Shown: positions 2,923 to 62,883 of the stretch, piece after piece
Position numbering within the stretch: position 1 is the stretch's first letter
How the letters are laid out: the number at the start of each line of letters is the position of its first letter
Assembly: GCA_030280995.1 (NCBI GenBank)
Contig: JASXTE010000008.1
Location: forward strand, 7,726,212 to 7,790,211
Direction: 5' to 3'
Source of the DNA: Hemileia vastatrix
Lineage: Eukaryota; Basidiomycota; Pucciniomycetes; Pucciniales; Zaghouaniaceae
DNA: 64,000 bases
Position numbers and translations under genes: made by a program
The notes under the pieces: generated by a model
What the model saw: only the letters and a program-made list of their open reading frames with translations
Told to the model about the DNA's origin: nothing
Databases searched by the model: none

Positions 2923-3530
2923 GACCAAAGTGGTTCTGCTGCACATGAAGAGGAACTAGACTTAATTGATTATGATGAGCCTACTTCTGTAAGTTCTCCT
3001 TTAACAAGAAGAATTTCTCAAATTAATAAATACTTTCCCCAAACAGGATGTGGAGATGGAAGAAGTGTAAATCCTAGTAGACACAACTCAGGATCAGGAA
3101 CCTGTAATAAACCCACCAGAAGAACTTCCAAAAGGATTCAGGATAAAAAAGATGCCATTGCCTCAACAGGTAAAGAATCTGTCAACTCACAAAAATGAGC
3201 TAAGGACAGAAAACTTGAGAGTAAGGGCAAGGGTAGATTCTCTGGAAGAAAAGGTGAGAAAGATAGATGCCTTTCTTCAAGAGAAGAGGAAACCTCTTCC
3301 CCCCAGGGATCATCAACAATTGGCTCCTCAGCAGCCAGAGAAAGTGGAAGTGTCCAAGTGGCAGTGGGATTGGTTAAACACTCAGTGGGACTACCTGTCT
3401 CAAAATCAGCATCAGTTGCCACAGGCAGGTCCGTCAAGACCCAACCAAGTCAACTCCACACCTCCTCACCCCTATCAAGGAGGCAGAAGAAGAAGAAAAT
3501 CCAATATGGTCTTGCCCAGAAAACCCTGGT
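2923..3530 (+). pseudogene. E1 N-terminal spliced ORF (accessory/gag leader protein), broken
   Basis: This corresponds to the E5 spliced product at 55543-56224. The E3 start ATG aligns with ATT here (2923), so the start is lost; an upstream in-frame ATG at 2860 exists. The first exon encodes an acidic stretch ending DYDEPTS, followed by a GTAAGT...CAG intron at 2989-3046 (58 nt). Exon 2 opens with DVEM but meets a TAA at 3068-3070. The downstream part (from 3152) is well kept: IKKMPLPQQ, a predicted coiled coil, KWQWDW, HPYQGGRRRRK and a terminal PW at 3532. The overlapping polyprotein frame has a stop at 3196 in this copy. Confidence 0.65.
2989..3046 (+). other. Candidate intron 1 of E1
   Basis: GTAAGT donor and CCAAACAG acceptor, 58 nt apart, at the exact position of the introns in E3, E4 and E5. 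Length is 1 mod 3, so removal moves translation into the overlapping frame. Confidence 0.65.
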
Positions 3531-6500
3531 AAGCCCCTCTATTGATTCTCAAGTGCCATTTCTTGTAGCTGATTCTGCTCCTTCAGGTAAATCTGAGAGG
3601 GAAGAAGAAACCTTGAGACCAGTAGAGGCTGGGAGCAGCAGACAAATAACTCATGTATCTAATCCTTTACTTTTAATTGATACTTCAATGATTAACCCTG
3701 ATATGGCTGTAATTGATGAAACTCTTGACCCTGAGTTTTATGAGAGTCTGGAAATTTACTCTGTTTCCTTATTGAGAAACACTCCAGATGTAGCAAAGAT
3801 TAATGATGAGTACTTGAGAGATATTATCACAAAACAGAATCATATTATGAACAATATGCTATTAACTCAGAATTTTAATGGTTTATTAACTGAGAAAGGG
3901 TATCAATCCTTAAGGAGTGAATTGCAGAAAGTCTCTGATGAATTGTTAAATTATAAGGCAACTCATGAAATGAAGGTTGCTTTGTGGCAAAATATCAAAA
4001 ATGATTTGTCCAAATTAAAAGACACTGTATCTATCTGTTGTGAAGAGCTGGAGATAGACAAGATGAATCTGAAGAGATTGAATGACTATTATTCATCTTT
4101 TCAAAATAATAATCAGTTATCTTTTGCAACTATCAATGAGAGTTTATCTAGTCTTCCAAGAATGAAAGCAAGACTAACAACCATTGAAGAGAAATTGAAC
4201 TCATTGTTGAATGACCAGAAATATTCTGACATTTCTTTAAAGGAACATATAGTGCAGGATGCTCAAATATTAACTGTGGCTAGTTCATCTAAAGTAAAAA
4301 TAGTTCCAGAAATACCTGTTTATACCACTGAGTTTCCATCAAAAATTGATGATGAACCAGGATCTTCAACAGAAGGATTGCACAATGAGATTACAGCCCA
4401 ATTAGAGAAGTTACAGCTGATTCTTACTCAGAAACAAGCTAGTACTAAGGAGACTCCTTCAAATCAAAAGAATTGGCCAAAACTTGACCAATATCCAACA
4501 TTTGATGGTGATTCTTCTTCTGATTGGCAACAATTTATTTGAAGAATTGATAAATTGAAAAACTCTTACAAACTCCCAGATGAGGAATTTGTGTCTAAGT
4601 TAATTTCTTTATTTACCAATGTAGCCCTTATGTGGTATGAATCTGTCCTATTAGATGGGAATGATTACTCATGGGAAGATTGGAAGAAATTAATTAAAGC
4701 ACAATTTGGGGGCTCCAAGTTTAGGATGGCTCAACAAAGGCAGTATCAGGAAACTAAATATAGTTCTTCTACTGATAAACCTATTGAGTTCTTAATGAAA
4801 CCTGTTAAAATCTTAAGAGCTATGGACCCAAAAATGGAGTTTGAGTTATGGAAGGACAGGATCCTTTATAAATTACCAATGTCTTTGAGAGACTTGATAG
4901 TGGCTAGGACTGAGATCACCAGAGAACCTTCTTCTTTCATCAATACTTGTAATGAGATTCTTTTAAACAACAAGTATGATGCCAGAAGATTCATTCCTAG
5001 AACCACTTGGGAAAAACCCTCAACTTTTCAACAGAAACCTCTGGAAAAGGTTGGGAAGCCTTCTGCCCCTGTTGCACCTAAAAAGTAAGCAACAAACACT
5101 TGTTTCAAGTGCAACAAACCTTGGCAGAAGGGCCATGTTTGTGAAAAGAAGATAAATCTTGTAGAACAAACAGAGGAGCATACTGATGAAACAGTAGCAC
5201 TGGATGATACTTCAAGTGATTGTTCCAGCAATATTTCATATGAATCTCTACAAGAAATCTTGATGCTGGAAGAGGATATCCATTATTTAAATACTATTGA
5301 TATTGATAATAATGATTTATCTACAGTTGAAGATGCTGAGATCATAAAGAACATTGAGGATAGCACAATTTTTATTGCCCCTCTCAAGGCACCAGTCTTG
5401 ATCAATGGAACCAGCATTGAATTTGTTTTGGATTCGGGAGCTGGAGGAAGTGTAGTATCTGAAAGAGCACTTGCTTCAGTAGATCAAGACTATAAATCAA
5501 AACTAATGCCTATCATTTCTGAAAATTGGAGAGGATATGGCTCTGTTTTGTCCCCCATTGGTAAATACAAAGCCACAGTGTTTTTTAAATATAACCATGG
5601 TTTTGCAAAAGCTATTTGTGATTTTGTTGTCATGAAAAATGATAAATTAAGCAATTGGTTTATTGTAGGGAATGATATTTTAACCAAGTATGTCATAAAG
5701 CTGGATCCTTCCAACCAATGTTTCACAATGGGGATGAATGGGAAGAGAAAATTTAAGATTTCCTCCCCTAAAAAATTATTAAAACCAGAATTGAAAACAT
5801 GTAATTCTGTAATTCAATATAAAGGAAGATCTACAAAAGAAATGCATGCCCTTATTTCTGAAATTGACAATGCTTCTTTAAGAGAACAACTTTCTGGTGA
5901 GGATAAAGATTCCATCATTAACTTGATAAAGTCTTTTCCTATGGCCTTTGCTCATGGGTCACATGAACTGGGATTAGTTAAAGAGGAAATGAAACTTTCA
6001 TTGTCTGGTCCATTAACTGATATACCACCTAGTTTAAAGAAGAAGCCTTATCCTGCTTCTCCCACAAAGAGAAAAGATATTGAAGACAATATCTCTACCC
6101 TTTTAAAAATGAATATTATTGAAAAGGTAGTTGAAACACCAAAATATTGTGTTATCTCACCTGTCCTAATTTCTTATGAGAAAGATAAATCCAGGTTATG
6201 TGGTGATTATAGAGCACTAAATACTTATACTGTTGATGATATCTACCCTTTACCAAGAATTAGCTCTATACATGCTACTTTACAGGGTGCTAAATATACC
6301 AGCTGTCTGGATGGTAACAAGGGATATCACCAGGTACCTGTTGAGAAAAATTCTTAGAATTTTCTGATGATTTCTACTCATATGGGTATTTATAAGTATA
6401 TTAGGATGCCTTTTGGCCCTAAAAATTCCCCTTCAGTTTTCCAAAAAGTCATGGATAACACATTCCAGCAAGAGATAATTGAAGGATGGCTGATGGTTTA

Positions 6501-20946: not shown

Positions 20947-23900
20947 AGTAGAGTAATATTGGCTAGCATTGAAACCTAAGTTTTTGAAGTTTATCAGCAC
21001 TATGAAGCCACTAAATTCTGGATGTTTTCTTAGTGCCATTAAGAGCTTTATGTAGTTTAAGAAAATTTCAAGGATTTTGGAGCTTCATATCAGGAGGATT
21101 TTTGATTCATAGTTCTTTAACATTGCTATGTAATTAAGCAGCTATTATATCCAAACACCTTACTTTCAAACCAAAAATTACTGCAAGAGTTAGTAAAATT
21201 TTTTGAGGAAAAAATGTTGCTATTGGCATAAATTTATTATTTTATTCTGTCCTTTCATTTTGTTTAAAGCCTTTGTCCTCAAATCTAGCTTTAAAATGTA
21301 GCAGTAATTCATCTGGAGAGTGTTTAACAGCAAAACCCCATTTTGCTTTTAGAGGAGTAACACCAGGGGGAAGGGGAACTTCAGACCATAATTTAAATCA
21401 GGAAGTATATTCAATTTCAGCATTACATGCATATTTTCACACTTGAGATTCATATGATTTCATAGCTTGTAAATAAGTATTGGGAATGGGGATAGGTAAT
21501 CATGCAGTAGTGATTTGCATAGATTAAATGTCTGCATATTGGTAATTGATGTTCTTTTGAGCTTTGAAGTCCCCAAAAGATAGATAATTTATAATATAAT
21601 CAATAGATACTTTAGTTAGAGTAGTTGTAAAAGCTTTTTTGTGTAGCAGTACTAGCTTTAGGATCAGTTGTGGTAGACATTTCCATTTCTGATTCAAACA
21701 TCCAGCCTGATTCTGTATTGCAGAGTAACCAGCCATAGTTTTTTTAGAATAACCAAAAAACTTACACTTAAAATCCCATTTATATAGTTTAGTGTGGACT
21801 TCTTTAGTACATTAACAAAATATTTCTCAACAAATGTTCTCATATTATTGAAATTTTTTCAGGTACCAAAAACAATTTCAAGAGGAGTAGATTTGGTTAT
21901 TTTTCTATTAATAATTCTGTTATGTGCAAAAGAAGCCCACTTGTAAGCTAATATCCAAATACTTTTTGGTAAGCCACTCACAAGAAGAGACGTTCTTAAA
22001 ATGTCACAAACTTTTCAATTAAAGAATTCTGAAGTTCTGTTTTTTCCAGAATGATAAGACATTGTAACTTCATGAACTGCTTGAATTGAGGCAAGGTAAG
22101 ACTTCATTGAATTACTGTGAAGCTCTCCGCTGGCTGTTTAGAGTACCAATAACTTCTTACTGGTAACATTTGTGCGTTTTTTGTAAAATTATTTAAACAA
22201 ATTCATAGAATCACTCTTAGATTTGAGGAGAAATACCTTTCTATATGTGGAAAAGGAATCCCTAAACAGATAATCCCACTTATAGCTTTCATTGATAGTG
22301 GTGTCTTTGATTGGCCAAGTAAATCACCAATCGCCAGTGAAGGCAAAAAATCAGGAGCTATTTCACATTGTTCTGTTGTCTCTCTTAGATTTTTGTCAGT
22401 AGCATGATCAGCACAATAAGTTTTATCTTTAAGAAACTCAGTTTGAAGTCCTGGAAAAAGATTAAGCTTGATCAATTTTTTCAGGATCCAGTTGCTGGTG
22501 TACCCTAGGAATCAGTTCCAATCCAATAATGAGATTAAAGAAGCATATTTTTGGTAGATGGATGCTGATTTTACATAATCAACAAACATATTGGACATTG
22601 AATAAGATTAACTAGGTTGAAAATTAGTGGTAACAGGGGAATAGTGAGAAATAGGATTGATATTGATGAAAGACACAGAAGTATCATGTTTTATGGTATT
22701 TAATACCCATTTGTTCCCTTTAACATCAATATTTACAAGAAGAGCTTTAGTACTATTGTGTGTAAGTACAAATTCTCTATCAGTGGACATAGAAAAAATT
22801 AATCTGGCATTAGCTATATTTGAAAGAGATATTAAATTAGTCCTTGCTTGGGGACAGAAGAAAAGATTTTGTAATAGAACTGAGAAACCTAATTCTATAA
22901 GTGTAACATACCCCATTCCAGTGATAAATGAAGGAGTACCATTAGTTTCTAACTTATTAGGAATTTCTGGTGAGATAGGTTTTAAGTTTGAAAATATACT
23001 CACATCTCCTGTTACATGATGTGTGGCCCCAGAGTCAAGAATTGCTTCAGTGCCAGTGACAGAGGTTTGTGCTTTCCATTCAATGGTTTTAAAATAAATT
23101 TCAGAAATGGAAGTGGATAGAACTTCTAAAGAGTTTGTATCAAATTCTATAATTTTGTCATCTACATCTGCCATACATATCTTAACTCTGCCTTTTCCAT
23201 CACCAAAAATTTTGGTCAATTTACTTAGCCTGGAATTTTGTTTGAAGGTCCTAAAAATATTCAAAGTAGGGTTAAAATTAAATATTTTCAATTATATGGA
23301 TAATCAGGATGTAATTTTTTTAGTCAAGTTGCAGTCAAGGAAATGTTTCTGTGTGCTGGGAGTGAAATAGGAGTCTACTTGACATGGAAATTTGGGACAA
23401 TTTCGAAATTCATTAATGGAGAAATTGGAAACTAAAGGGGAAAAATTGGCTTTATTTATGAGTGTTATTTTTGAATTTGCATTTATCATCTCAGTCATAA
23501 AGTCATCTGCAGTCATATTTAAGGAGGTGCCTTTTAATTCAATATCTCTACTGGTATTGGCAGATATATTTCCCATCAAGAATGGAAAAATTTCCTGATT
23601 TCAAATGGCCTTGATGCTATTGTTGGTTAAAGCAAAACCAGTCTATATAGTGGCATCTATGACCTCAGAAACATGCTTTCAATTCTTGGAAACTGATACA
23701 AAAGAAAGAGTAGGAATTTCTAGAAGGGATTTGAAGAGAGAGATCCTCTAGGTATGTGTTTATTGGTTGAACCTTTTAATGAGAGCCAAGTATGCTTCAC
23801 AAAAAGATATTTGAGACAGGAGGATCCTTTTTAAAGATACATTAATCATATTAAAAAGTATCTTCCATGAAAAAAAATCAATAATATTGTCTAGTGACCT

Positions 23901-27824: not shown

Positions 27825-27910
27825 TGAGGATTTGTTAGATTTTTTGATTTACTGTTACTTTTGGACTCTCTTCTTTGGTTGGAAATTGGTTTTCTGGAAT
27901 TCATTGGACC

Positions 27911-29390
27911 ATGGCTTCTGGACCCTCTTTCTCAAGTGGTGGAAGTGGCACTTCTGGCACTTCTGAGGAGGTTAATCCTCCTGTTTCTGTTAGGCCTTCT
28001 GTCAGGATCAAGTCCTGGAATGGTCCTATGTTTATGGGGGAGGATGTAAAGCTGTTTCTGGAGCTTTTTGAGGCTTCTGGGAATGTAGATGGGGCTTCTC
28101 ACTTGGACATGGTGAAGCAAGTCATCTTTTACATTGGTGACAGGGCACTGGTGAAGGAAGTTGCTGCAATTCAGGGATATAGAAGGAAGGATTGGAAAAT
28201 TTTTTGTCTGCAGATGACAGACAGGTGAGGATCCAGGTACTCTATGGTGGATCTCAATATGATTCCTAGTGAATGGAAATATTATGGAGGTGTGGATAAC
28301 CTCCACACTTATAGGAAGTTTCTGGCTCAGTTGGAGCCAGTGGTGGAATACTTAGTGGACATGCAGGAGTTAGAGAGTACTGACTCTGCTAGTGACATTT
28401 TCTGGTCTGCTTTGGCCAGGAATGTTAGGATTGATGTGTTAAAAGATTTGGCTAGGAAGGACAAGATGAAGGTTCTTCCTAATGGAAATCAGCAATTTCC
28501 TGCTCTTTCAGTGGTGAAAGAGTTTGTTGAAGGACATCTAAAACTGTTGGCAGTGGATTCCTGACAAGAAGCTAGCACTAAATATGTTAGCAAGGTCAGT
28601 GAGGCTTTGGCTGAAGATGTGGAGGAGTCCTGAAAGAAGGAAGTGGTGAACAAGGGGAAGGCCCCTGAGAAGCCTAAGGAGGTGGATCCTGTGGTGGAGC
28701 AGTTGGCTGATTTAACAAAGAAGCTGCATATCTTTGTTCAGGAGGCTCAGAAGGCCAATAAGGGTCCTTCTCAGCCTAGGGATTTTGATAGGAGGGCTGG
28801 TAGGAGTGATACTTGTGTTTGCTCTTATTGTAGCAGAAAAGGGCAAAACTCCAATGATTGTTGGGCACTAAATAGAGATGTGTCTGAGGGGAAGGTGGAA
28901 TTTTATGGAAAGGTGTTGAGGTTTCCTGATGGTTCTTTTGTCAAGACTAATGATGGTCAGGCTCCAGCTGACTTGGTAAGGAGGAGACATAATCTCAATT
29001 CCAGGAGGCCAAGGTTTGAAGAGTTGCCTAATGAGGCTGTTTCTTCTGGAAAAGGTGGAGATGATGGAAAGGGAAAGGGAAAGGAGGCTAATAGGGTCTC
29101 ATTCAAATCTTCCTTTGGTGGTTTAGAATTTTACTCTTGTGGTAGAAAGCCAAGTGGGGAATGCTTGGCTGGTGTGTATGATGTAGAAGCAGGAAAGATG
29201 GGAAGGCCTAAGAGCAGTTCTCAGGCCCAACCAAAGCCTAAGGCTTCAAAGGTGGATCCTAAGCTGAGGGCAGCTAGGAAGAAGTACAGCAATGAGGAGC
29301 TGTACAAGATGCAGAAGGGGATTGCTGATATGGGAACCCCCAAGTTTTGGAGCATTGGACATGAATGGTGTGCCAATGCCTATGGATGTT
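27911..29390 (+). pseudogene. D gag
   Basis: The ATG at 27911 starts MASGPSFSSGG, a Gly/Ser-rich head, followed by a capsid-like region (VKLFLELFEASGNVDG, FIGDRALVKE-like YIGDRALVKE). In-frame stops lie at 28226, 28562 and 28631; between them the frame is kept. The zinc knuckle at about 28815-28865 reads CSYCSRKGQNSNDC, in which Gln replaces the His of CX2CX4HX4C. The frame ends at 29390 and continues in another frame from about 29340 (MDVDSDSEEDVPLASFPK). It is nonfunctional but young enough to follow. Confidence 0.82.
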
Positions 29391-30522
29391 GATTCTGACT
29401 CTGAGGAGGATGTTCCTTTGGCTTCATTTCCAAAGCCTGCTGGAGTTAGAGGTTCTGGTGAGGGATCTGGTTTAACTCCTGTTGATGGAAAATCTGTTGG
29501 TGGTTCTGGTCCTCAGGAAATTTCTAGGACCAAGGTAGTGAAGCAGAAGGCTCACTTTGAGAGGCCAGTAGTTTCTGGTCAAGTTAATGTTATGGACTCT
29601 GTCCTGGAAAGGATGAATCAGGGTCAGGTTTCCCTCACTTATGGGTAATTGTATGCTATCAGTACTGGGTTGGCTAATAGACAGAAAATGTTGTTGACCA
29701 GGAGGAGGGTTTCTTCTGGGGAGGTGGAATACATATGTGATTCTGCTGAAAAGTTTGGTGAGGGGTTGAAAACTCATTTTTCTGCACCTCTGGGTTATGT
29801 CAATGTCACTCTGAGGCAGGGAGGCTAGGGCATTGGTGTATTCAGGTTCTCAGATTAACCTGATTTCTTTTTTTGAGGCTACTCATCTGGGCCTCCCCAT
29901 CAAGACAGGAATTGGTGGAAATTTAAGAGGTATTGGTGGCCATGTCAATGAGTTGATGGGAACCTCTGAATTTGTGAAGCTGGATGTTGGTGGAGCCTCA
30001 GGGAAGGTTCATTTTTACATTGCTAAAGGTAATGTAAAGGCTGTTTTGGGTAGAACATTCTTGATGGATTTCCAGGCAAGAATTGGTTATCAGTTTGGAG
30101 TTAACTGGTGAAGATGAAAGAAGACTTCACATGAGGTTTTCATCTCCTGGAGATGATGGTTGGGAGACCAGGCCTGGATTTTCTTCAATGTGCCAGTGCA
30201 TGGATTGTTGTAGGAGAAGAAGAGAAGTGGGTTCTGCCTCTGGTTTTTTGGAGTGTGGCTCAGGCTCTAGTGAGATTCTGTCTTTTTTAGAGTGATGAGG
30301 GCTGATTTTCCTAGTGCTACAACCTCTCCTCAAGATGAGGAAATCACAGGTTGTAGTAGGTTAGCTCCCTTAGAGATATACCAAGTGGATTTTCAACTTT
30401 CTCTTCTCTGCAAATATTCTTCAAGTTTTTTATCAAGTATCTGTTCTCTCTCAAGATTCTCAATTATTTTTAATTCAAGTTCAAAAAAGAAGATTGGTTA
30501 TATATCTTTATTGAAAGATATG

Positions 30523-31112
30523 CAGAAAAGCTTTGCAGTGGTGAGATTGGGGTCTAAAAGTAAGGCCTCCCAATTGTGCACTTGTAGGGTTTCTTCTACA
30601 CCTTTCAAAAACATTACTTTGGCCACATCTGTGAGCATTGGGGAAACCCCTGGTTATTTTTGTAGGATAGAAGAAAACTCAAGAAAAGAAGATAAAAATT
30701 TCAAGATAACTGATGAAAATAAAAAAAAAAATCTGAAGATAATCAAGAAAGAAGACAAAAATTATTTTTGTGAAGATCATCAAGATCAAGTTTTGGGCCT
30801 CCAAAATGAGGTTAAACTGCACAAAATTTTGAAGAATGAAGATAATCAAGATCAAGTTTCGGGCCTCCAGCATGAAGATAAACTGCACAATTTTAGAAGA
30901 TGCGATTCAGAAGATGAATCAAGATTTGAAGATTTGGAAGATGGATGTGAAGATGAAGATGTGGGATGGCAGAAAAGTTTAGGAGTGGTGAGATTGGGGA
31001 GTAAAAGTAAGTCCTCCCAATTGTGCACCACTAGGGTTTCTTCTACACCTTTCAAAAACATTACTTTTGCCACACATGTGAGCAATGGGGAAACCCTTGG
31101 TTTTTGTTCCAG
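30523..31112 (+). repeat. Internal duplication in D pol
   Basis: A block of about 143 bp (30523-30665 and 30970-31112, 447 bp apart) encodes similar segments, QKSFAVVRLGSKSKASQLC and QKSLGVVRLGSKSKSSQLC, each followed by STPFKNIT and GETxG. Between them is a Lys/Glu/Asp-rich linker with its own 66-bp tandem repeat (QDQVxGLQxExKLHxx). Confidence 0.85.
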
Positions 31113-33905
31113 GTCTGGTGGTGAAGAAGTCCTGAAGATCCCTCAAGTTGACAGTGGAGCCGCAAAGTACAAGAAGGTAGCACAGAAGATTAGGCCTGTA
31201 GGTTTGAATCCTCCTTTGAAGAGACCTCCTTTGTCAAGAGATCCATACTGTACTCCTCTGGTGAAGAATCCTCCTGATTTTGTGGAAACTGCTAGGGTGA
31301 CTGTGGAAAGGTTAAAAGTTGTTAATTTTGGTCCTGATGGTTGGTTTTCTGATGAGGAGAAGAAGTTGTTGTTGCACATTATTGTGCTGAGGGAGAAAGT
31401 GGTATCATTTGTTGAAGAGGAAAGGGGTGTGTGGAAGCACTCTAATGGGGAAACTTACTTGATTCCTGTGGTTTGTCATGAACCTTGGCAAATCAAACCT
31501 ATTACAATTCCAGTTGCTATCAGGGATGATTTTGTGGAGATTGTTATGGAAAGAGTCAGGACAGGATTGTATGAAAAATTAACATCTAGTTACTCAAGTC
31601 CTTTTTTCTGTGTAAAGAAGCAGAATGGGAAGTTTAGGGTGGTGCATGATCTTAGAGCCTTGAATAGAGTCACCATCAAGGATGCGGAGTACTTTGTGGA
31701 AGCTTTTGATGGAAGGGTGTGTTATGGTGTGGGTGATGTTATGAGTGGTTCTGATGAAAGGGAACTTCACAATGTTTGAGACTCCTCTGGGAAGATTTCA
31801 GCTCTCTAGGTTTCCTCAAGGAGAAACTAATTCAGTAGCAGTATATCAAGCACAAATGGCTTGGATTTTAGAGGATGAGATTCCTACTCATGCTGGTATT
31901 TTTATTGATGACGGTAGAATTAAAGGACCCTACACTGTTTATGGAAATGAAGTGCTGAAGGAGAACCCAGGTATAAGGAGATTTGTTTGGGAATATGCAA
32001 TTATTCTAGAGAGAGTATTGTTTAGGATTGAAGAGGCTGGTTTGACCATTTCTGGGTCAAAGTTTTGTTGTTGTGTTCCTGCATTTGAAGTTCTTGGTCA
32101 TGTGGTATGTAAAGAAGGAAGGATCATGGCAAAGAAGAAGGTTAATAAAATTCAGTCATGGCCAAGGCCTAAAAATACTACTGAAGTCAGGGGATTTTTG
32201 GGAGTTTTTGTGTATTTCAGAATTTTTATTAAAGATTTTTCTTTGTTGGCTTACCTTTAAGGAGGCTGACTAGGAAATATTAAGAGTGGGAATGGACTGA
32301 AGAGTGTGAAGAGGCTTTTCAGAAGTTGAAGAAGGTGGTAGGTCAAGATATTATTCTTCACAAGTTGGATTATGGAAGGGAAGCTGGAAAAATTTATCTG
32401 GCAGTGGACTCAAGTTATATTGCTGCTGGTGCTGTTTTTTCTCAGGAAGATAACGCTGGGAAGGTCAGGCCAGTAAGGTATGAGTCTGTGGTATTTAATG
32501 AGGTTGAATCTGGATATTCTCAAACCAAGTTGGAATTGTGTGGTATAGCAAAAAATTTGAAGAAGCTACAAACTTTTTTGTGGGGGCAGCATTTTGAGCT
32601 GCAGGTGGATGCTAAATCTCTGGTTCAAATGATCAACACACCTAGCCTTCCAAATGCTCCAATGACTTGGTGGGTGGAATTTATTCAGCATTTTTCTTTT
32701 GACCTGGTACATAAACCTGGAAAAACTTTTACGATGTCAGTTGGATTATCAAGGAGACCACCCACAGATGAGGATTCTGATTCTGAAGAATTTGATGAAG
32801 ATCTCCCAGTGGTTAGGGCCAGCACAAAGGGTGCTGAAGATTTTTCTCACCTCCCCCATGAGGCTAAACTGGAAGATTGTTCTCTCCTCCCCCAAGAGGT
32901 TAAACTGGCTGGTTCTGATCTTGATTCTGGTGATCAGGAATTTTTTTTTGTTGATGAAGATGGGGCTGTTGTTTGGGATGGCTCAAATTTAGAAAATGGT
33001 GTTTTTTTAGTGAACTGGATTTTCATAAGATTCAGTGGAAGGGAAAGTATGTGCCAAAGTTTAGGGATTGGTTTCCTGGTTGAGCCTATCGTGTTGCTCA
33101 TGTTCACACTGGTGATTTTGATGATAGGGTTGTACCCTTGGATGTTGTGTTGTTGGATTTTGAAGATGAGACCTGGGGTAAGACTGGGTTTTATTTTATT
33201 ATGGTTGAATATCTGTTAATCTTGGAGAGGCCAGATATTTGTGATGATGATACTTGGGTGGCAATCAAGAAGAAGAGTCCTGGCTTCTATGTTTCAGGAA
33301 GAAGGTTGATGAGGAGGAGACATTCAATCCTCAAGTAGTGGTGACTCAGAAGAAGGGTCAAGAGTTGGTGTTGAAGTCTTTGCATGAAGACCTTGGTCAT
33401 AGAGGCTCTGGGGAGACTTATAGAAGAGTAGCAGACAGATTTTGGTGTCCAGGTATGAAGTTGGCTGTGCAGGGTTTGGTTCAATCTTGTGAAAAATGTC
33501 AAAGAAGAAGTCACTTGAAACCTAAAGAGGTTGGCCATGCTACTGGTGAATCAACTGTGTTTGGAAGATTCAGTTTGGATGCTGTCCATATTAAAGAGGT
33601 CAGGTATAAATATTTGATTGTTGCCAGGGATGATTTGTCTGGTTGGGTGGAGGCAGCGCCTCTGGTTAATTTGACTGCCAAAAATGTGGCAGAATTTTTG
33701 AAGAAGGAATTGATGTTTAGATATGGGTTAATGAAGCTGGTGACTGTTGATGGTGGGCCAGATTTTGGAGCTGAATTTAAAGAAGCTGTGGCAAGTATTG
33801 GCTCTAAAGTCAGGGTGGCTACACCTTATTATCCTAGAGCTGAAGGCATGGTTGAAAGAGGCCATCAAGTTATCAAGAATGCTTTGGTGAAGATATGTGG
33901 AGATA

Positions 33906-34712
33906 TGTCACACACCACGTGACACTTGAGGCAAAAGCAGCTCATTAAATCAATAAAACAGAGGTCTAAATCCATACTCGAAGCGCAGAAAGCGATTCTA
34001 CCTAGAAACAGCGACTTCTCTTTGTGTACCCACTATTTGACTGCACTAATCTAAACTTTAAATATAAATTAGTCAATTTCTCAAAAGTGTGTTTAGGATT
34101 TTCTTTGATAAGCGATGCACAGCGCAATAGTCAATGCAATATTCCGCTAAAAGGTTTATTAAGTATCTGTGGGTTATTAAAAGGGGTAGTGAGCATGGAC
34201 GGGTTGGTTAGTGGAGGATTAAAGGGGTAGTGGATGTTAGTGAGGAGGATCCAGGTGTAACGGGTGTAAATTTGGAGGTCTGTGGTGTGCGGAATGATGG
34301 ATGGGTATGAGGTCAATGCAAGGAGGAGTAATAAATATAAAAGGGGTTGGATTTCGGTTTGAGGTTTCTTTAGAATTAAATTATAAAATGTATTTATAGT
34401 TAATAGTGGTAAAACTTCAAGTTAAATCATTGTTATTGTACATTTAGCTTTTCCCTCAATAATCATTTCTAAATTTAAATCTTTGATTGTTGAGTGTTAC
34501 AACCCTTTGTGAGATTCTAAGAATATTAGTATTACCTTAAAATATATTAAGATTCTTCTTGAATATTACTCAAAGCAGTAGCTCTTTCTTCGAGTCATCT
34601 TTGTATCACTTCATCAAAAATTTCCTCTGTGCTTCAAAGAAGTCTCTAAACTTTGTCCCTCATCTCACTTTCAGGAACACCCCCGACCTTGTGCATAGGT
34701 CGTCCGGTGAAA
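33906..34712 (+). repeat. Solo LTR inside D integrase (separate family)
   Basis: 807 bp starting TGTCACACACC, flanked by AGATA at 33901-33905 and 34713-34717. Removing it with one AGATA restores the frame ICGD-SAEKWRHYLPLVLFADR. It contains TATAAAA at 34336-34342. Strand is taken from the TATA orientation. Confidence 0.85.
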
Positions 34713-38218: not shown

Positions 38219-38840
38219 ATGACTGATCAAGGGGCTCATGCTGGCCATAATGAGGAACTTGAATTAATTGATTATGATGAAGCTTCTTCTGTAAGTTCTC
38301 CTTTGACTACAAAATTGGCTCAAATTAATCAATTACTGGACCAATCAGGATGTAGAAATGCAGGAGGTGGAAATATTAGTGGAGACAACTTCTCAGGACC
38401 GAAAGCCTTCTATCAACCCCCCAGAACAGCTTCTGAAAGGCTTCAAAATAAAAAAGATGCCCTTAACTCAGCAACTCAAAAATCTCTCCACTCACATCAA
38501 GGAATTGAGGACAGAAAACCTCAAGCTGAGGTCAAAAACAGATTCTATAGAAGAAAAGGTAAGAAAGATAGAGTCCTTCCTTCAAGAGAAGAGGAGACCT
38601 CCTCCCCCCAGGGACCTTCCACAATTGGCTCCCCAGAAACCAGAAAAGGTGGAAGTGTCAAAGTGGCAGTGGGATTGGTTGAACACCCAGTGGTATTATC
38701 TGTCCCAGCAACAGCAACCTCAAATGCCTCAGGAAGGTCTGTCAAGAACCAATAAGTTAAACCCCACACCTCCTCACCCTTATCAAGGAGGAAGAAAGAG
38801 AAAAAACAACCACATTCAATTCTTGACCAAGCCTTGTTAA
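38219..38840 (+). pseudogene. E3 N-terminal spliced ORF (accessory/gag leader protein)
   Basis: Exon 1 (38219-38290) encodes MTDQGAHAGHNEELELIDYD and EASS. The candidate intron 38291-38348 (GTAAGT...CAATCAG, 58 nt) joins it to exon 2 in the next frame, which opens DVEMQEVEILVETT and runs without a stop to 38840. It contains KGFKIKKMPLTQQ, a Glu/Lys-rich predicted coiled coil, KVEVSKWQWDW and HPYQGGRKRK. The conserved terminal Trp is Cys here (LTKPC), and the GT that follows it in other copies is altered. The overlapping frame (38219-38755) is open almost as long but ends earlier. This is the best-preserved E1/E3-type version of the small protein. Confidence 0.6.
38291..38348 (+). other. Candidate intron 1 of E3
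   Basis: GTAAGT to CAG, 58 nt, same position and phase as in E1, E4 and E5. Confidence 0.65.
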
Positions 38841-45926: not shown

Positions 45927-46461
45927 ATGAGTGAAAACGTTGACATTGTAAGTAATAAGGCAAAACCTTATGACTTGAGACCAAGAACTAATAAATTTGT
46001 TGCAGGACATCACCATGGAGGAAACCTCCACCAGCAACACTCCTCATATGAGTCTGGAGGAGAAAGAAAGGCTTCTCAACCTTGTAAAGATCAAAAAATC
46101 AAAAAATACCCTTCAAGAACAAATTCACTCCCTATCTCAATTACACAACAGCTTGACAGTAAAGGTCAACAAAATGGAAGAGGAGCTTATGAATTTAGAG
46201 AAAAGGGCAGGCCAAACTTTCATGGAGGTCAACCAACAAATAACAGACCTAAGGACACAGGTGAAACCAGTAACAACTCCCTTAAACAATCAACCAGCTC
46301 CTTCTCAAGCTCCAGGAGAAGAGCAGATGATAACTGTAAGCAAATGGAAATGGGACTGGTATGCCCAGAACTACAACAGCAACCCTCATCAAGAGTCCAG
46401 CCATCACCCTTACAGGGGAAAGGGAAAAAGGGGAAGAGGAAGTGGAATAAGACCTTGGTAA
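45927..46461 (+). CDS. E4 small spliced protein (accessory or gag leader)
   Basis: Exon 1 (45927-45947) encodes MSENVDI. A GTAAGT...TTGCAG intron (45948-46005, 58 nt, CTAAT branch-like site) leads into exon 2 in the next frame, DITMEETSTSNTPHM, open to the TAA at 46459-46461. The predicted product is 158 residues: an acidic head, IKKSKNTLQEQI, a Leu-rich predicted coiled coil to about residue 80, a Pro/Gln linker, VSKWKWDWY, then HHPYRGKGKRGRGSG and a terminal RPW. The basic tail and Trp cluster suggest RNA or DNA binding; no known family was recognised. The overlapping unspliced frame (45927-46931) is also open. Splicing is inferred, not shown. Confidence 0.6.
45948..46005 (+). other. Candidate intron 1 of E4
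   Basis: GTAAGT donor, CTAAT 14-18 nt before the TTTGTTGCAG acceptor, 58 nt, 1 mod 3. Confidence 0.7.
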
Positions 46462-46515: not shown

Positions 46516-49500
46516 GTGATAATGAGGTATTAAGATTGATTGATAATGATATTCAGGATTATTCATTTAATAATAGTGATTTGAATTTATCTTTAAAGGA
46601 TGACATTGTACATAGCTTTATTGATAATGGTGATAATAAAAATATAAAAATTGAAACAAATGAATCAAATCTTGACCCATATAATCTTGATAGCACTTCT
46701 GAGTTAGAAATAAATGGTTTTATGAAAGAAAAACCTATGATATCTTCTATAATAAATAAATTGTTATTGAGAATTGAAAAGTTAGAAGAATATTCCAAGG
46801 AGTCTTCAACTGACATGGAGGAGGTAATACTAAACCTCACTAAATCTTTGACTCACACAGCCAATAAAGTTAAGTTCATTGAAAAGTCAAATGATGATTT
46901 GTTAAATGAAAATATCAAAATTAAAATCTGATATTGAGCAGTTACACAGTAAGCTGGATCAATCTCAGAATACTATGGCTATTATTGAGGGACGGGTAAA
47001 ATTGTCTTTTTCCAATTTAAATGATACTCTTTCACATGTAACTGCTTTGCAAAATAGATTGCAGATACTAGAAATAGAAGTAGCTAACATATTGAAAAAT
47101 AATGACAGTAAGCATGTAAACACCTCTTATAAAAACCATACACCAGTAAATAAGAGAGAATCATTTGATAAATCATTAATTGAGAAAGAACATAGTGGTA
47201 TAAGTTCTGAGAGTCACAAATCAGTAAAGGATGAGATAAATGATCATCTGTCAAAAGTAAGTGAATTACTTAATATTCCTCAGGTTAAGGAAGTAAAAAC
47301 TAACCAGAAAAACTGGCCTAAGTTAGATCAGTACCCTACCTTTGATGGGGATTCAAAATCTGATTGGCAACAATTCATACAAAGAATTGATAACTTAAAA
47401 TTTTCATACAAGTTACCTGATGAAGAAATTACATCAAAACTTATATCTTTATTTACAGATGTGGCCTTATTATGGTTTGAGTCTGTATTGAGTGAGGGGA
47501 TTAATTACTCTTGGAATGAATGGAAGGCACAAATTGAAAGACAATGTGGTGGTCCAAAATTCAGAATCACTCAACAAAGATTGTATGAAAAATCAAGATA
47601 TACTCCAAGTAGTGGAGAAAAACCAATAGTCTTTTTAATGAGTTTGATAAAAATCATGAAAGCCATGGATCCAAAAATGGATTTTGATGTGTGGAAAGAA
47701 AAAATAATATATAAATTGCCTATATCAGTCAGAGACATTATTGTAGCTAGAACTGAAACCATTAGAGATACTTCTGGTTTTATCAATATATGCAATGAAA
47801 TATTATTAAACCACAGATATGAGACAAGGTACAACACTTATAAGCAAAATGTTGAGGTAGTAAAACCTACTACAAGTAAGTTACCAATAGAAAGGAAAAG
47901 ACTTATTGCTCCTCTTGTTCCAAAGAAACAAGAAAGTAACACTTGCTATAAATGTAATGAACCTTGGGTTAAAGGTCATTCCTGTAAGAAAAGAATAAAT
48001 GTTATTGAAAACTCACAAGATTCTGAACCCAGTAATCATGAAGATGAAAAGGATGAGTCTAGTGAGGATTGTAAAAGTAACATTTCTTACAGTGATGAAG
48101 AGAATGAAGTATTGGTATTAGAGCAGGATATTATGTTCCTGAATGATACAATATCTTCCAATGATACATCTTTAACTTCCATTGAGGAAGCTGAGATAAT
48201 TAAAGATGTAGATCATGATACTTACAAAATCAAGCCTATTAGAGCACCTGTTATAATATGTGGAAAAGAAATGAATGTCATTCATGACACTGGGGCTGCT
48301 GGTAGTGTAGTTTCTGTTAATACATTAATGAAACTGGATAGTAAGTACAAAGAAAAACTAGAACCTGTACAGACAAAGAACTGGAGAGGTTTTGGTTCAG
48401 TATTAAGTCCAATTGGCAAATACAAAACTGCTGTTTTCTTCAAATATCATAATGGATTTGTAAGAGCAGTATGTGATTTTGTAGTCATGAATAATATTAA
48501 TTGTAGTAATTGGTTTATCATTGGCAATGACTTATTGACCAAATTTGGTATTAACCTAGATCCTGAAAATAGTTGCTTCACCATTGGAGTAAATGGGAAG
48601 AGAAAATTCAAGATTTGCTCTGAAAATTCTGTTTATACCATTGCTCCAAAGGAAGAACAACAAAGTGGAAGACCCACTTCTGAGATGCTTGAGTTGGAAA
48701 ATGAAATCCAAAAAGCCTCATTTAGTCCTCAACTCTCAAATATTGAAGTAGACAATATATTGAGATTGATAAAATCTTATCCTAGGGCATTTGCACACGG
48801 TTCAAATGAGCTAGGATTGGTCAAAGACCATGAAATGAAAATATCTTTAAGTTGTGACCTGGATAATATTCCTGGAAGCTTAAAAAAGAAACCTTACCCA
48901 GCTTCTCCTGCAAAAAGGAAAGACATTGAAGACAACATTAAAATGTTGTTGGAAATGGGTATTGTTGAGAAAGTAGACACAACTCCTAAATATTGTATAA
49001 TATCACCAGTTTTAATCTCTTATGAAAAAGATAAGGCAAGGTTATGTGGTGATTATAGAGCTCTAAATACATTCACAGTGGATGATATTTACCCTCTTCC
49101 CAGGATAGCTTCTATCCATGCTACCTTACAAGGAACTAAATATATTTCATGTCTGGATGGAAACAAAGGTTACCACCAGATTCCAGTAGAAAAGAGTTCT
49201 CAGAATTACTTACTGATCACCACACATATGGGAATATATAAGTATGTGAGAATGCCTTTTGGACCTAAAAATGCCCCTTCAGTCTTCCAAAAATTGATGG
49301 ATAGTGTTTTTCATCAGGAAATGGTTGAAGGATGGCTCTTAGTATATATTGATGACATCATAGTGTTTTCAAAAACATATGATGAGCATTTAAATCACCT
49401 GAAAAGTGTATTTCAAAAAATGGATGAAATTAACATGACAATAGCATTGAAAAAATGTAAGTTTGGATTTCAATCCTTGAAAGTACTTGGACATGTTGTA

Positions 49501-53710: not shown

Positions 53711-54850
53711 TGTCAGCCAGGCTATTCCAGGAGTCCAGTAAATGATATATAAATTATAAAACCTTAAAGAGTGGGTAAGACTTGTATTTAATGAATATAA
53801 CTTAATATTTTATTGCATAATGAAATTATATAAGAATTTTATTATATACAAATGTTACATTAAATTTATTGGTTATATATATTTTTATATACAATTAAAT
53901 TGACCATAATATAATATATTCTACAAATAATGGCGCATTTTTATGTATTTAATAATTATAAATTTATATTTAATTAATTGAAAAACATATATTATAATTA
54001 CAAGTGAAAAATTGATTTATAATATATTTAAATTAATTACTTAAATTTATATATTAAATAATACCTCTCATATGATACTAAACAATAATTAATGACGCTT
54101 CTTTTGGCCCTTAATTGTGTTAGAAAAAACAAATAAATTAATTTGGACTAAATTGAGATTAATTGCTTGTTTTGTTGCGTCAAATTATTTTTTTGTTTCA
54201 CTTAAAATGTCCTTTAATCAGAATGTACCATCTGTTTGGAATTATATTTCTCATAGTTCCTATGTTTCCAATCTTGTTTAGTTATTTACTATTGTCACTT
54301 ACTGATTTGGGAATTAATGGCGGGGAAATTGGATTCTTGATTGGGCTTTTAATTATTTGTTTCATGTTTTTCTCTATATTGTTATGTTTCATTTATTCTT
54401 TTGATATGTTTGTTTTATTCCATTCTAATCATTGTATTTACAAATATAGCAGCGCTTCAGAGGACCCATTGCCTATAAAAGGGCCTTGGATAATCCCCTG
54501 TAGCCTTATCACTTATTATACACTCAACAAATTAAATACTATTTTACTATGTTTATATTTTTTTTTATTAGTAATATAATTCTAATTAAAAGTCTATATA
54601 ACAAATTAAAGGTTGCCTTAAGTCTGATAGTAATTATATTGTTTGCCGCGCAGAACTCTTACTTAAATAATAATAATATTTATAAAACCAATTTGTTGTC
54701 ACTTCTCAGATCACTCATCGTTGCCTTCTCTCAAATAAATTAAATAATTTTAATTGTTTTTATTTCTTTATTTCTAAAACTATTATCTCCTTCTTGTCCT
54801 CCTCTCTTTTCTTCCCTCTTCTCTTATATCTTCTAGACAACTGACCGACA
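53711..54850 (+). repeat. E5 5' LTR
   Basis: TGTCAGCCAGGC...GACCGACA, TATAAAA at 54474-54480. A 138-codon hydrophobic frame (54163-54579) overlies the promoter and is not regarded as a gene. Confidence 0.96.
54474..54480 (+). promoter_or_regulatory. TATA box of E5 LTR
   Basis: CCTATAAAAGGGCC, repeated at 62507-62513 in the 3' LTR. Confidence 0.75.
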
Positions 54851-55542: not shown

Positions 55543-56224
55543 ATGTCCAACAATTTGGCAGAAAAAATGGATAACATGCAAGTGGATGAGATAGAAATTG
55601 ACTATGATGCTGACACTGTAAGTTCTTCTAAAGTTGGTCATAAAAAATCTTATGCTAACACAAAGAATTCACATACTGCAGGATGTGGAAATGACAGGAA
55701 ATGCAAACAAACCAAACCCCCTTCCCCCAGTACCACAGAAGGAAGTAAAGCCTCTAGTGCCTCAAGAAGGTCTTCCAAAAGGCTTCAAAATAAAAAAGCT
55801 TCCTCTGCCACAACAAATCAGCAACCTATCCAGTCATATAAAAGAGTTGAAGACAGAAAATATGACGTACAAAGCAAAGGTAGACACATTGTGGGATCAG
55901 GTCCAAGAACTCAGGAACCAGATTCAGGCCCAGGCCCCTCCTCAATTGCCTCCCAATCAGCTTCAATTTCAGGCTCAAACTTCACAGCCACCCAGCTCAA
56001 CCATCCAAAATCCAAATACTATGGAAGTAGAGCAATGGAAATGGGATTATCTAATGAGTCACTACCAACAGAATGTGCAACACCCTCCTCATCATCAGCC
56101 TGGCCCATCCAGAACACCCAATTTCCATCCACCTCCTCATCCCTACCAACAAGGCAGGAGAAAGAAGGCCCAAGCACAATCCCAAACCCAGTCCCAGGGG
56201 AAGTTTCCTCCTCTGCCATGGTAA
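55543..56224 (+). CDS. E5 small spliced protein (accessory or gag leader)
   Basis: Exon 1 (55543-55617) encodes MSNNLAEKMDNMQVDEIEID and YDADT. The candidate intron 55618-55681 (GTAAGT, CTAAC branch-like site, ACTGCAG; 64 nt) joins exon 2 (55682-56224) in the next frame. The predicted product is 205 residues: acidic head, DVEM, Pro-rich stretch, KGFKIKKLPLPQQ, a predicted coiled coil (LSSHIKELKTENMTYKAKV), a long Pro/Gln-rich linker, EQWKWDYLMSHY, HPYQQGRRKK and a final LPW. It is conserved with E1, E3 and E4 in this frame. The basic tail suggests nucleic-acid binding; the family is not known to me. The polyprotein uses the same DNA in another frame, so the region would be dual coding. Confidence 0.62.
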
Positions 56225-59200
56225 GTAATTTGGTTGATAGTCACTTGGGTATGTTTTCTAATAAATCTTCTTCTGCAGGTAATATTATTGAACATGGTGA
56301 AAGAACAGTTAAACCTGTTAAAAGACAGCTTCCTGTAACTAGTAGCCCTATTGATGTAATTAGCAAATTGTCATTTGATGAACCTTTACATTTAACTTCT
56401 ACATCTTTAATTAATCCTTCTCTTGCAATTAAAAATGATTCTGTTCCCCCTGAAATCTATACCTTAATTGAAAAAACTTCTGAGGAAATATTGAAAGATA
56501 CCCTTGATTTTAATATTGTGAAAGACAAGCATGTGAGAGACGTGTTAATCCATGAAAATGATAGATTAAATAATTTACACTTGCAATGTAAAGTGAGTTC
56601 TTCTGTACAAGATACAGCTTATTTAAAAATCAAAGAAACCTTAAATATTGTTCTTAGTCAACAAAAACAAATAAGAAGTGACCATAGAGCTATCTCAGAT
56701 AGAAATATCAGTCTACATAAGACCTTGAGTGAATTGAAACCCCTTATTGAGGAAAATTATTCATTCAAAAATGAAATAAAATCTCTACAAACTGAGTTTA
56801 AGAAGCTAAAAAATGATTTCCATGCACTAAGTACCAAACACTCAGTTTCTGAGGACAGAAATGTTCTATCTCTTGCAAAAGTAAATGACCAGATGTCTGA
56901 AATTCCAAGAATAAGAAACTATGTGTCTGACCTACAGGAAAAGTTTTCAACCTTAACCATCAATAATGAATTAAATGAGATTTCTGCAAATAAGCTGAAA
57001 AATAATAAAGGGAAAAAACCTGAACAAAGTTCATCCTTTCTTCCTCATATTTCAACTGTTAAACAAACTGACAATGAGTCTGTAAAATCTTTTGCTACTA
57101 GCAAAAAATCTTGTGATGGTCATGCACCAGCTGTTTCTGTAAATAATGAAATTTCTGAACACCTGGCTAAACTTCAGGAATTATTACTAATGAATAATTC
57201 AAACCAAAAAGTGGACCATCCCAGTAGTCAGAAAAATTGGCCTAAGTTAGACCAATATCCTACCTTTGATGGTGATTCTTCCTCTGATTGGCAACACTTT
57301 ATCCAGAGAATTGATAATTTAAAGAGATCTTATACACTACCTGATGAGGAAATTGTTTCTAAGCTAATTTCTTTATTTTCCAATGTAGCCTTGATGTGGT
57401 ATGAATCTGTCCTCTTAGATAACAATCATTATACATGGAATGATTGGAAATCCTTGATTGAGAATCAGTTTGGTGGTTCAAAATTCAGGTTAGCTCAGCA
57501 AAGACTGTATGAGAATACTAGATATGTATCCTCCTCTGTTGAAAAGCCCATTGTTTTTCTGATGAAAATAACTAAAATCCTTAGAGCAATTGATCCAAAG
57601 ATGGATTATGATATTTGGAGAGATAAAATCTTGTATAAATTACCAAATTCTCTTAGGGATTTGATTGTTGCTAGAACTGAGCATGTAAGGGAAAATTCTT
57701 CTTTCATTAATATCTGTAATGAAGTACTACTCAAACATAGATATGAACCAAAGAATTACCTTAGTAAATCTTATAATGATCAGAATAAACCTTCTATAAA
57801 GCTCCCAGAAAAATCTGGTAAACCCTCTGCCCCAATTGCACCTAAAAAATATGCAACAAATACTTGTTATAAATGTAACAAACCGTGGCAGAAGGGTCAT
57901 GTTTGTGACAAGAAAATTCATCTTGTTGAACAAAATGAAGACACTGATGAAGTTGAACTTGATGTCAATAATTCTTCCAGTGAGTGTGAAAGTAATATCT
58001 CCTATGACAATGAATCTGTTAAAGATGTTTTAATGTTGGAACATGATGTCCATTATTTAAATAATATATCTGAAGATTGTGTATTGAATCTATCTTCAGT
58101 AGAAAATGCTGAGATAATTAAAGATATTACTAACAATTCTATTCCCATATCCCCTTTAAAGGCACCTGTTATCATTAATGGTAAAAATGTTGATGTAGTT
58201 CTTGATTCTGGTGCTGGAGGAAGTGTAGTATCTGAAAAAGCTTTGGCTTCAGTGGATAAGGAATATTTAAGTAAATTATTGCCTATAACTTCTGAAAAAT
58301 GGAGAGGGTATGGTTCTACCTTATTTCCTATTGGCAAATACAAAACCTCTGTATTCTTCAAATATAATGGTGGTTTTGTCAGAGCTATTTGTGAGTTTGT
58401 TGTCATGAAAAATGATAATTTGAGCAATTGGTTTATTATGGGAAATGATATTTTAACCATGTTTGGTGTGAAACTAGACCCAGCAAATAATTGCTTTACC
58501 TTAGGAATGAATGGGAAAAGAAAATTCAAAATTTCTTCTCCTAAACCTTCTGGGCATTTGTTGAAATCTTGTAACTCACTGACCCAATGTAAAGGTAGAA
58601 CAACAACTGAAATGGATGATTTATTACATGAAATAAATACCGCTTCTTTTGGTGATCATTTGACTAATGAACAAAAGGATTCTATTGTTGCCTCTATTAC
58701 CTCTTTCCCTATGGCTTTTGCTCATGGTTCTCATGTCTTGGGAATTGTTCAGGAAGAGATGAAAATTACCTTATCCTGTAATTTGAGTGATATTCCTCCT
58801 TCCCTTAAGAAAAAACCATATCCTGCTTCTCCATCAAAAAGAAAAGATATTGAAGATAATATTGAAACATTATTGAAAATGAATATCATTGAGAAAGTGA
58901 ATGTCACCCCCAAATATTGTGTCATCTCCCCAGTCTTGATTTCATATGAAAAAGATAAAGCTAGATTATGTGGAGATTACAGAGCTTTAAATACTTATAC
59001 TGTTGATGATATTTATCCTTTACCCAGAATTAATTCAATACATGCTACCTTGCAAGGTGCAAAATTTATTAGTTGTCTGGATGGTAATAAAGGTTATCAT
59101 CAAGTTCCAGTTGAGAAAAATTCTCAAAATTTTTTGCTTATTGCTACTCATATGGGAATATATAAGTATGTTAGGATGCCATTTGGCCCTAAAAATGCTC

Positions 59201-61743: not shown

Positions 61744-62883
61744 TGTCAGCCAGGCTATTCCAGGAGTCCAGTAAATGATATATAAATTATAAAACCTTAA
61801 AGAGTGGGTAAGACTTGTATTTAATGAATATAACTTAATATTTTATTGCATAATGAAATTATATAAGAATTTTATTATATACAAATGTTACATTAAATTT
61901 ATTGGTTATATATATTTTTATATACAATTAAATTGACCATAATATAATATATTCTACAAATAATGGCGCATTTTTATGTATTTAATAATTATAAATTTAT
62001 ATTTAATTAATTGAAAAACATATATTATAATTACAAGTGAAAAATTGATTTATAATATATTTAAATTAATTACTTAAATTTATATATTAAATAATACCTC
62101 TCATATGATACTAAACAATAATTAATGACGCTTCTTTTGGCCCTTAATTGTGTTAGAAAAAACAAATAAATTAATTTGGACTAAATTGAGATTAATTGCT
62201 TGTTTTGTTGCGTCAAATTATTTTTTTGTTTCACTTAAAATGTCCTTTAATCAGAATGTACCATCTGTTTGGAATTATATTTCTCATAGTTCCTATGTTT
62301 CCAATCTTGTTTAGTTATTTACTATTGTCACTTACTGATTTGGGAATTAATGGCGGGGAAATTGGATTCTTGATTGGGCTTTTAATTATTTGTTTCATGT
62401 TTTTCTCTATATTGTTATGTTTCATTTATTCTTTTGATATGTTTGTTTTATTCCATTCTAATCATTGTATTTACAAATATAGTAGCGCTTCAGAGGACCC
62501 ATTGCCTATAAAAGGGCCTTGGATAATCCCCTGTAGCCTTATCACTTATTATACACTCAACAAATTAAAAACTATTTTACTACGTTTATATTTTTTTTTA
62601 TTAGTAATATAATTCTAATTAAAAGTCTATATAACAAATTAAAGGTTGCCTTAAGTCTGATAGTAATTATATTGTTTGCCGCGCAGAACTCTTACTTAAA
62701 TAATAATAATATTTATAAAACCAATTTGTTGTCACTTCTCAGATCACTCATCGTTGCCTTCTCTCAAATAAATTAAATAATTTTAATTGTTTTTATTTCT
62801 TTATTTCTAAAACTATTATCTCCTTCTTGTCCTCCTCTCTTTTCTTCCCTCTTCTCTTATATCTTCTAGACGACTGACCGACA
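61744..62883 (+). repeat. E5 3' LTR
   Basis: 1140 bp, near identical to 53711-54850, followed by AGGGA. Confidence 0.96.

Follow-up and report, generated by a model that had tools for sequence, protein, structure and literature searches.

The analysed stretch of the Hemileia vastatrix genome (64,000 nt, here called the window) holds several related LTR elements, which were recognised by self-alignment and include E1, E3, E4 and E5 (Table 1). The two LTRs of E5 are 99.57% identical across 1149 nt of the self-alignment, and AGGGA abuts the element on both sides, before the 5′ LTR and after the 3′ LTR, as a target-site duplication. A single open reading frame, frame A, was found to encode an N-terminal region that overlaps a second frame (frame B, see below), followed by a presumed Gag, protease (PR), reverse transcriptase (RT), RNase H, integrase (IN) and a chromodomain. 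Pfam searches with pieces of frame A revealed the PR-RT-RNase H-IN order of Ty3/gypsy chromoviruses. RT, RNase H and H2C2 of E5 scored well over the Pfam cut-offs, gag-asp_proteas (PR; 19.4 bits, cut-off 28.2) and rve (integrase core; 28.9 bits, cut-off 32.6) scored below them, and the chromodomain that terminates the integrase (PF00385, cut-off 25.1) reached 32.3 bits in E5 and 28.4 bits in E4. The PR-RT piece gave 16 protein matches; the closest of these had 50–51% identity, and proteins of Puccinia coronata (31%) and P. striiformis (30%) were among them. The E1 copy is degenerate, with Ile in place of the start Met and stops in both frames, and frame A of E3 has a stop within the overlap. 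In the E4 copy of the window a frame change was seen at 46906–46931, between N-terminal frame A and Gag-Pol; other copies of the E4 family (e.g. L035 and L037) have a frame A without interruption through the whole stretch read. Apart from these elements, a GC-rich (about 0.39–0.45) and G-skewed region at 27875–33922 contains ORFs that by eye resemble another Ty3-type element, and an ORF with a DSGATHH motif on the minus strand (22608–23291) has, by eye, the appearance of a fragment of a Ty1/copia gag-protease.

Table 1 Features of E5 and the related elements, in window coordinates.
Feature	Position	Strand	Basis
E5 5′ LTR (TG...CA)	53711..54850	+	self-alignment; ends by eye
E5 frame A, single ORF, 2055 aa	55543..61710	+	ORF list, Pfam on pieces, alignment
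E5 exon 1, 25 codons common to polyprotein and B	55543..55617	+	sequence
E5 intron, 64 nt, retained or removed, GTAAGT...CAG	55618..55681	+	sequence; absent from intronless copies
E5 exon 2, frame B, 180 codons + stop	55682..56224	+	sequence
E5 3′ LTR	61744..62883	+	self-alignment; ends by eye
E1 intron, 58 nt, degenerate copy	2989..3046	+	sequence
E1 frame B, interrupted by a stop at 3068	3047..3532	+	B alignment
E3 intron, 58 nt	38291..38348	+	sequence
E3 frame B, 163 codons + stop	38349..38840	+	ORF list, B alignment
E4 exon 1, only 7 codons	45927-45947		
E4 intron, 58 nt	45948..46005	+	sequence
E4 frame B, 151 codons + stop	46006..46461	+	ORF list, B alignment

The initial annotation had described a GTAAGT at 55618 of E5 and a CAG ending at 55681, 64 nt apart, which join the start-codon exon to a second frame that is open to 56224, and the same GTAAGT...CAG at the equivalent place in E1, E3 and E4, each 58 nt long. 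Both the coordinates and the lengths, which are all 1 mod 3, were confirmed; the second frame of E5 is open from 55682 to a stop at 56222–56224. The splice sites are conserved beyond the window: among intron-bearing genomic copies the donor GTAAGT was present in 28 of 28 E5-type, 38 of 39 E4-type and 5 of 7 sister-family copies, and the acceptor CAG in 27 of 28, 39 of 39 and 7 of 7, respectively. Nine extra copies that had been chosen for odd frame lengths had GTAAGT in seven and CAG in nine cases. In one pair of an E4-family and a sister-family copy, the intron was 84% identical, compared to 72% for the leader, 70% for exon 2 and 69% for downstream frame A; the 21-nt exon 1 had 81% identity in this pair. 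A branch-like motif, CTAAC, lies at 55655–55659 of E5, 23 nt upstream of the acceptor, and E4 has CTAAT; by eye, no clear branch motif was found in the introns of E1 and E3. In the families read, the base preceding the donor GT is T, not G; this may make for a weaker donor and thereby permit retention of the intron. A second intron starting at the GTAAGT at 56221 was considered and rejected, since this GTAAGT is found in E5 and E4 but is absent from E1 and E3, and joining it to the next CAG would, by eye, keep the stop.

Frame B of E1, E3, E4 and E5 could be aligned and has KIKK, a coiled coil, [KQ]WxWD(W/Y), HPYxxG(R/K) and a C-terminal PW or PC in common. The part of the E5 product encoded by exon 2 is predicted to consist of the coiled coil, the W motif and a basic C-terminal region, and frame B of the E4 family is 65% identical to that of the sister family. 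An AlphaFold model of E5 exon 2, which was built from three window sequences, had a mean pLDDT of 61.5 with one confident helix at about residues 42–84, the remainder being of low confidence. Pfam gave only weak coiled-coil matches to frame B, and a sequence search of the PDB gave three weak matches (E 0.06–0.09), all across the coiled coil. Relatives of frame B were found neither by a word-based search of 5.8 billion proteins nor in the viral contigs searched; since the protein searches returned no relatives, annotation may have missed frame B. Stops interrupt frame B in 9 and frame A in 10 of 39 E4-type copies, as is expected of dead copies.

Next to the motifs, dN/dS ratios were determined separately in both frames, which the initial annotation had set as a check, for the pair E1–E3 and for three pairs of E4-family and sister-family copies. 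Frame B gave 0.14 (bootstrap 0.06–0.23) for E1–E3 and 0.25, 0.22 and 0.26 for the E4-sister pairs. Over the same bases, frame A gave 1.46 for E1–E3 and 1.14, 1.20 and 1.09 for the E4-sister pairs, compared to 1.58 and 1.19, 1.36 and 1.39, respectively, in the third frame; the bootstrap ranges for frame A are wide (0.65–2.70) and overlap those of the third frame. Thus, the exon-2 frame came out as purifying (0.14–0.26, versus 1.09–1.46 for frame A): B is under purifying selection, and the residues of A inside the overlap drift like those of a non-coding frame. Downstream of the end of B, frame A had a dN/dS of about 0.14 (E1–E3) and 0.35–0.39 (E4-sister), and of about 0.47 and 0.63 in the distant pairs E3–E5 and E1–E5. 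The dS of B could not be calculated in three of the four pairs with E5 because these are too diverged.

Most copies nevertheless have no stop in frame A where it overlaps B: 27 of 28 E5-type copies with the intron, 29 of 39 E4-type and 6 of 7 sister-family copies. To ask how often this is expected, five copies (E5, E4, L035, L061 and L066) were used, a set that does not include E1 and E3 with their stops in A. Given the B protein, 14–17 stops in A are expected under pol codon usage, and permutation of the synonymous codons of B yielded 5–7.5 (P ≤ 0.0004); none was observed in any of the five copies. The third frame of these copies has 11–16 stops. Since B is constrained and A drifts yet stays stop-free, the overlap is dual coding: the residues of B matter, and A need only stay open. 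The claim of the initial annotation that B and not A is conserved therefore holds for the motifs and the low dN/dS of B, but it has to be narrowed with respect to A, of which only the residues drift and the openness is kept. The simplest reading is that ribosomes would have to traverse frame A from the start codon in exon 1 to make the polyprotein, and the lack of stops likewise argues for the earlier proposal that intron retention gives the polyprotein. One could turn the argument around and take A as the true N-terminus of Gag and B as a remnant whose motifs are conserved through the constraint on A. Frame A is, after all, open in E5 of the window and in nearly all intron-bearing E5-type copies, and the probability that B is open given the A protein of E5 is 0.08, so that an open B says little by itself and the case for B is carried by selection. 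This explanation is contradicted by the low dN/dS of B and the third-frame-like behaviour of A in the overlap and, in addition, by the finding that 69 of 116 substitutions between E1 and E3 fall on third positions of B; we regard it as extremely improbable.

Splicing across the intron had been proposed from the splice sites and gained support from genomic copies, which here take the place of the RNA-seq reads that the initial annotation had named as a check. Among the 30 E5-type copies read first, two (L021 and L022) were exactly minus the 64 nt. Genome-wide counts (747.6 Mb, 791 contigs) with junction patterns, each with its reversed pattern alongside, revealed the E5-type junction without the intron at 17 places (12 perfect; reversed pattern 0) and the intron-bearing form at 2943 places (reversed 0). 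The E1/E3-type junction without the intron was present at 53 places (31 perfect; reversed 0) and the intron-bearing form at 4355 (reversed 1). The resulting ratios of intronless to intron-bearing places, about 0.6% for the E5 type and 1.2% for the E1/E3 type, are rough because the patterns differ in length and in the mismatches permitted. The junction of E4 and its sister family was found at 0 places genome-wide with one mismatch permitted, and the intron-bearing form at 2742 places with two mismatches permitted (reversed 2). Splicing may be less frequent in these families, or their spliced RNA may be kept from the particles; alternatively, the stricter pattern may have overlooked copies. With no junctions, the evidence for splicing in E4 and its sister family consists of the conserved sites and frame B.

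Twelve intronless copies out of the 70 places were read. Exon 1 continued in frame into B in all ten that were read in addition to L021 and L022, and B was unbroken in seven of the twelve and broken in five; L093 has an unbroken B without the start Met. In L092 and L095, two intronless copies of the E1/E3 type, the usual stop behind PW is missing and frame B extends to 189 codons. L022 is flanked on both sides by AAGAC and its LTRs are 99.4% alike over 479 nt, which marks it as a separate insertion and an ordinary product of retrotransposition. For L021, the 3′ LTR was not found within the stretches fetched. In a tree of 36 E5-type copies, six of them intronless, both kinds interleave with four Fitch changes; L022 groups with the intron-bearing L014 (support 0.905), and the supports in the clade that mixes both kinds are weak (0.62–0.85). 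Deletion at the DNA level would also give intronless copies, and it would fit with just 70 such places versus about 7300 intron-bearing ones; the junction counts cover exact losses of the intron. Against deletion speak the identical, exact GT-AG ends in two diverged groups with a flanking match of, by eye, 1 nt, the four changes on the E5 tree, and the insertion of L022 as an LTR element with flanking duplications, and we consider it very unlikely. Reverse transcription of spliced RNA best explains the intronless copies, which in two family groups lack exactly the intron.

Frame B has its own in-frame ATG at codon 4 of exon 2 in E1, E3, E4, E5 and the sister family, in E4 in the context ACCATGG. 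Internal or leaky initiation at this ATG could thus be the main source of the B protein, splicing being incidental. Such a start would account neither for the intronless copies in two family groups nor for the conserved intron boundaries, and the codons between the acceptor and this ATG keep D-V/I-x in frame B. Initiation at the ATG of exon 2 may serve as a second route; as the main route it is judged unlikely, compared to initiation in exon 1 followed by splicing into B. A further ATG, in frame A of E5, overlaps the stop of B (ATGGTAA, 56218–56224); re-initiation at this site was discarded as a candidate because it is not kept in E1, E3 and E4.

Where Gag lies bears on what the spliced RNA could encode. 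About 1.6 kb downstream, frame A has a stretch that aligns with the Gag-like region of a Puccinia relative, and downstream of B it also contains the zinc-knuckle-like CYKCNKPWQKGHVC (57865–57906). Its spacing is non-standard compared to the CCHC of the Puccinia relative; the standard zinc-knuckle pattern had no match in frame A, and Pfam names no Gag family at the Gag-like stretch. With both features downstream in frame A, B is not a Gag-only product, and the idea that B is the missing nucleocapsid was dropped since frame A has a zinc-knuckle-like motif of its own. Introns of other LTR elements are relevant here. The barley Ty1/copia element BARE1 has a single ORF with a 104-nt intron whose splicing shifts the frame, as stated in the excerpted text of PMC3735527. 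The excerpts of a review (PMC12786077) list EVADE (shGAG) and Ogre as LTR retrotransposons whose functional introns lead to subgenomic RNA. By analogy, the spliced RNA could tune the Gag:Pol ratio in the manner of BARE1 and EVADE, in which, according to the same excerpts, splicing likewise shifts the frame and ends Pol synthesis, and no separate accessory protein would be needed. Here the spliced RNA would not encode Gag; as the intron precedes Gag, the spliced product holds none of the Gag-like stretch, and we rate such tuning as slightly less probable even than initiation within exon 2. The excerpts point to further differences. Splicing ends Gag in BARE1, and here it would open a new, conserved frame; spliced BARE1 copies were reported as not amplifiable from genomic DNA, whereas here intronless genomic copies exist (PMC3735527). 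In EVADE, splicing removes the protease and ends Gag, and the excerpted text mentions no overlapping conserved frame (PMC12786077).

Taken together, it is highly probable that these Ty3/gypsy chromoviruses have two products from one start codon by retention or removal of a small intron. With the intron kept, frame A would be read through and yield the single Gag-Pol polyprotein; with the 64 or 58 nt (1 mod 3) removed, translation from this start codon would continue in frame B and yield a putative accessory protein of ~160–205 amino acids that combines a coiled coil with a basic tail. Partial splicing would set the ratio of the two. The genomic DNA supports that spliced transcripts occur and that reverse transcriptase copies them from time to time.

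The usual picture of fungal chromoviruses is that of elements with a single polyprotein that lack regulation. The initial annotation knew of no such switch in Ty3/gypsy chromoviruses, and indeed no report of frame-switch splicing in a chromovirus was found among the best-ranked matches in the open-access literature. In complex retroviruses, Rev and Rex are spliced accessory products beside an unspliced gag-pol RNA, a layout like the one proposed here. Closer is Cer1 of Caenorhabditis elegans, which is not known to be a chromovirus. In this Gypsy/Ty3-related element, according to the excerpted text of PMC10309623, the unspliced RNA encodes Gag and Pol, and the first exons of the spliced CERV mRNA are in the gag frame and are followed by a unique frame. 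CERV has 517 amino acids from five exons, the C-terminal half being encoded in an extra ORF. Parts of it are predicted to form coiled coils, no clear homologues are seen beyond nematodes, and CERV is needed for export of unspliced Cer1 genomic RNA (PMC10309623, same excerpts). As far as these excerpts go, both systems join a gag-frame exon to a new frame and have a predicted coiled-coil product; here, the joining is seen indirectly, in intronless genomic copies. Unlike Cer1, the elements described here have a single intron of 58–64 nt and the whole of B overlaps the start of the polyprotein, and the function of CERV was demonstrated whereas that of B is putative. Since Cer1 already splices into a new frame, the E elements represent a variation on an established strategy.

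By analogy to CERV, a B oligomer might bind the unspliced RNA and aid its export, protection or packaging. Our best guess is that B forms an RNA-binding oligomer whose target is the unspliced transcript; this is tentative, and the other possibilities together outweigh it. Equally tentatively, we propose a switch in fungal chromoviruses in which intron retention would lead to Gag-Pol and intron removal to a Rev/CERV-like RNA-handling protein, in which ~180 residues of the polyprotein would serve only as an open spacer, and in which families would differ in how well they exclude spliced RNA from particles; as a whole, this model is possible rather than probable. A very abundant family, with thousands of pattern matches in this genome, seems to gain a second protein, one under selection, by splicing into an overlapping frame. 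The split constraint, on the sequence of B and on the openness of A, is unusual and provides a clean natural setting in which to study overlapping genes. The intronless copies may serve as a genomic readout of how frequently spliced RNA is packaged.

Some genomic matches to frame B are clustered. At C103:4381345-4405935, C19:407791-424391 and C194:5157530-5174384, three to four matches each follow one another at a spacing of about 8.0–8.2 kb, which is close to the length of one LTR plus the internal region (8033 in E5); these runs look like head-to-tail arrays of elements with common LTRs.
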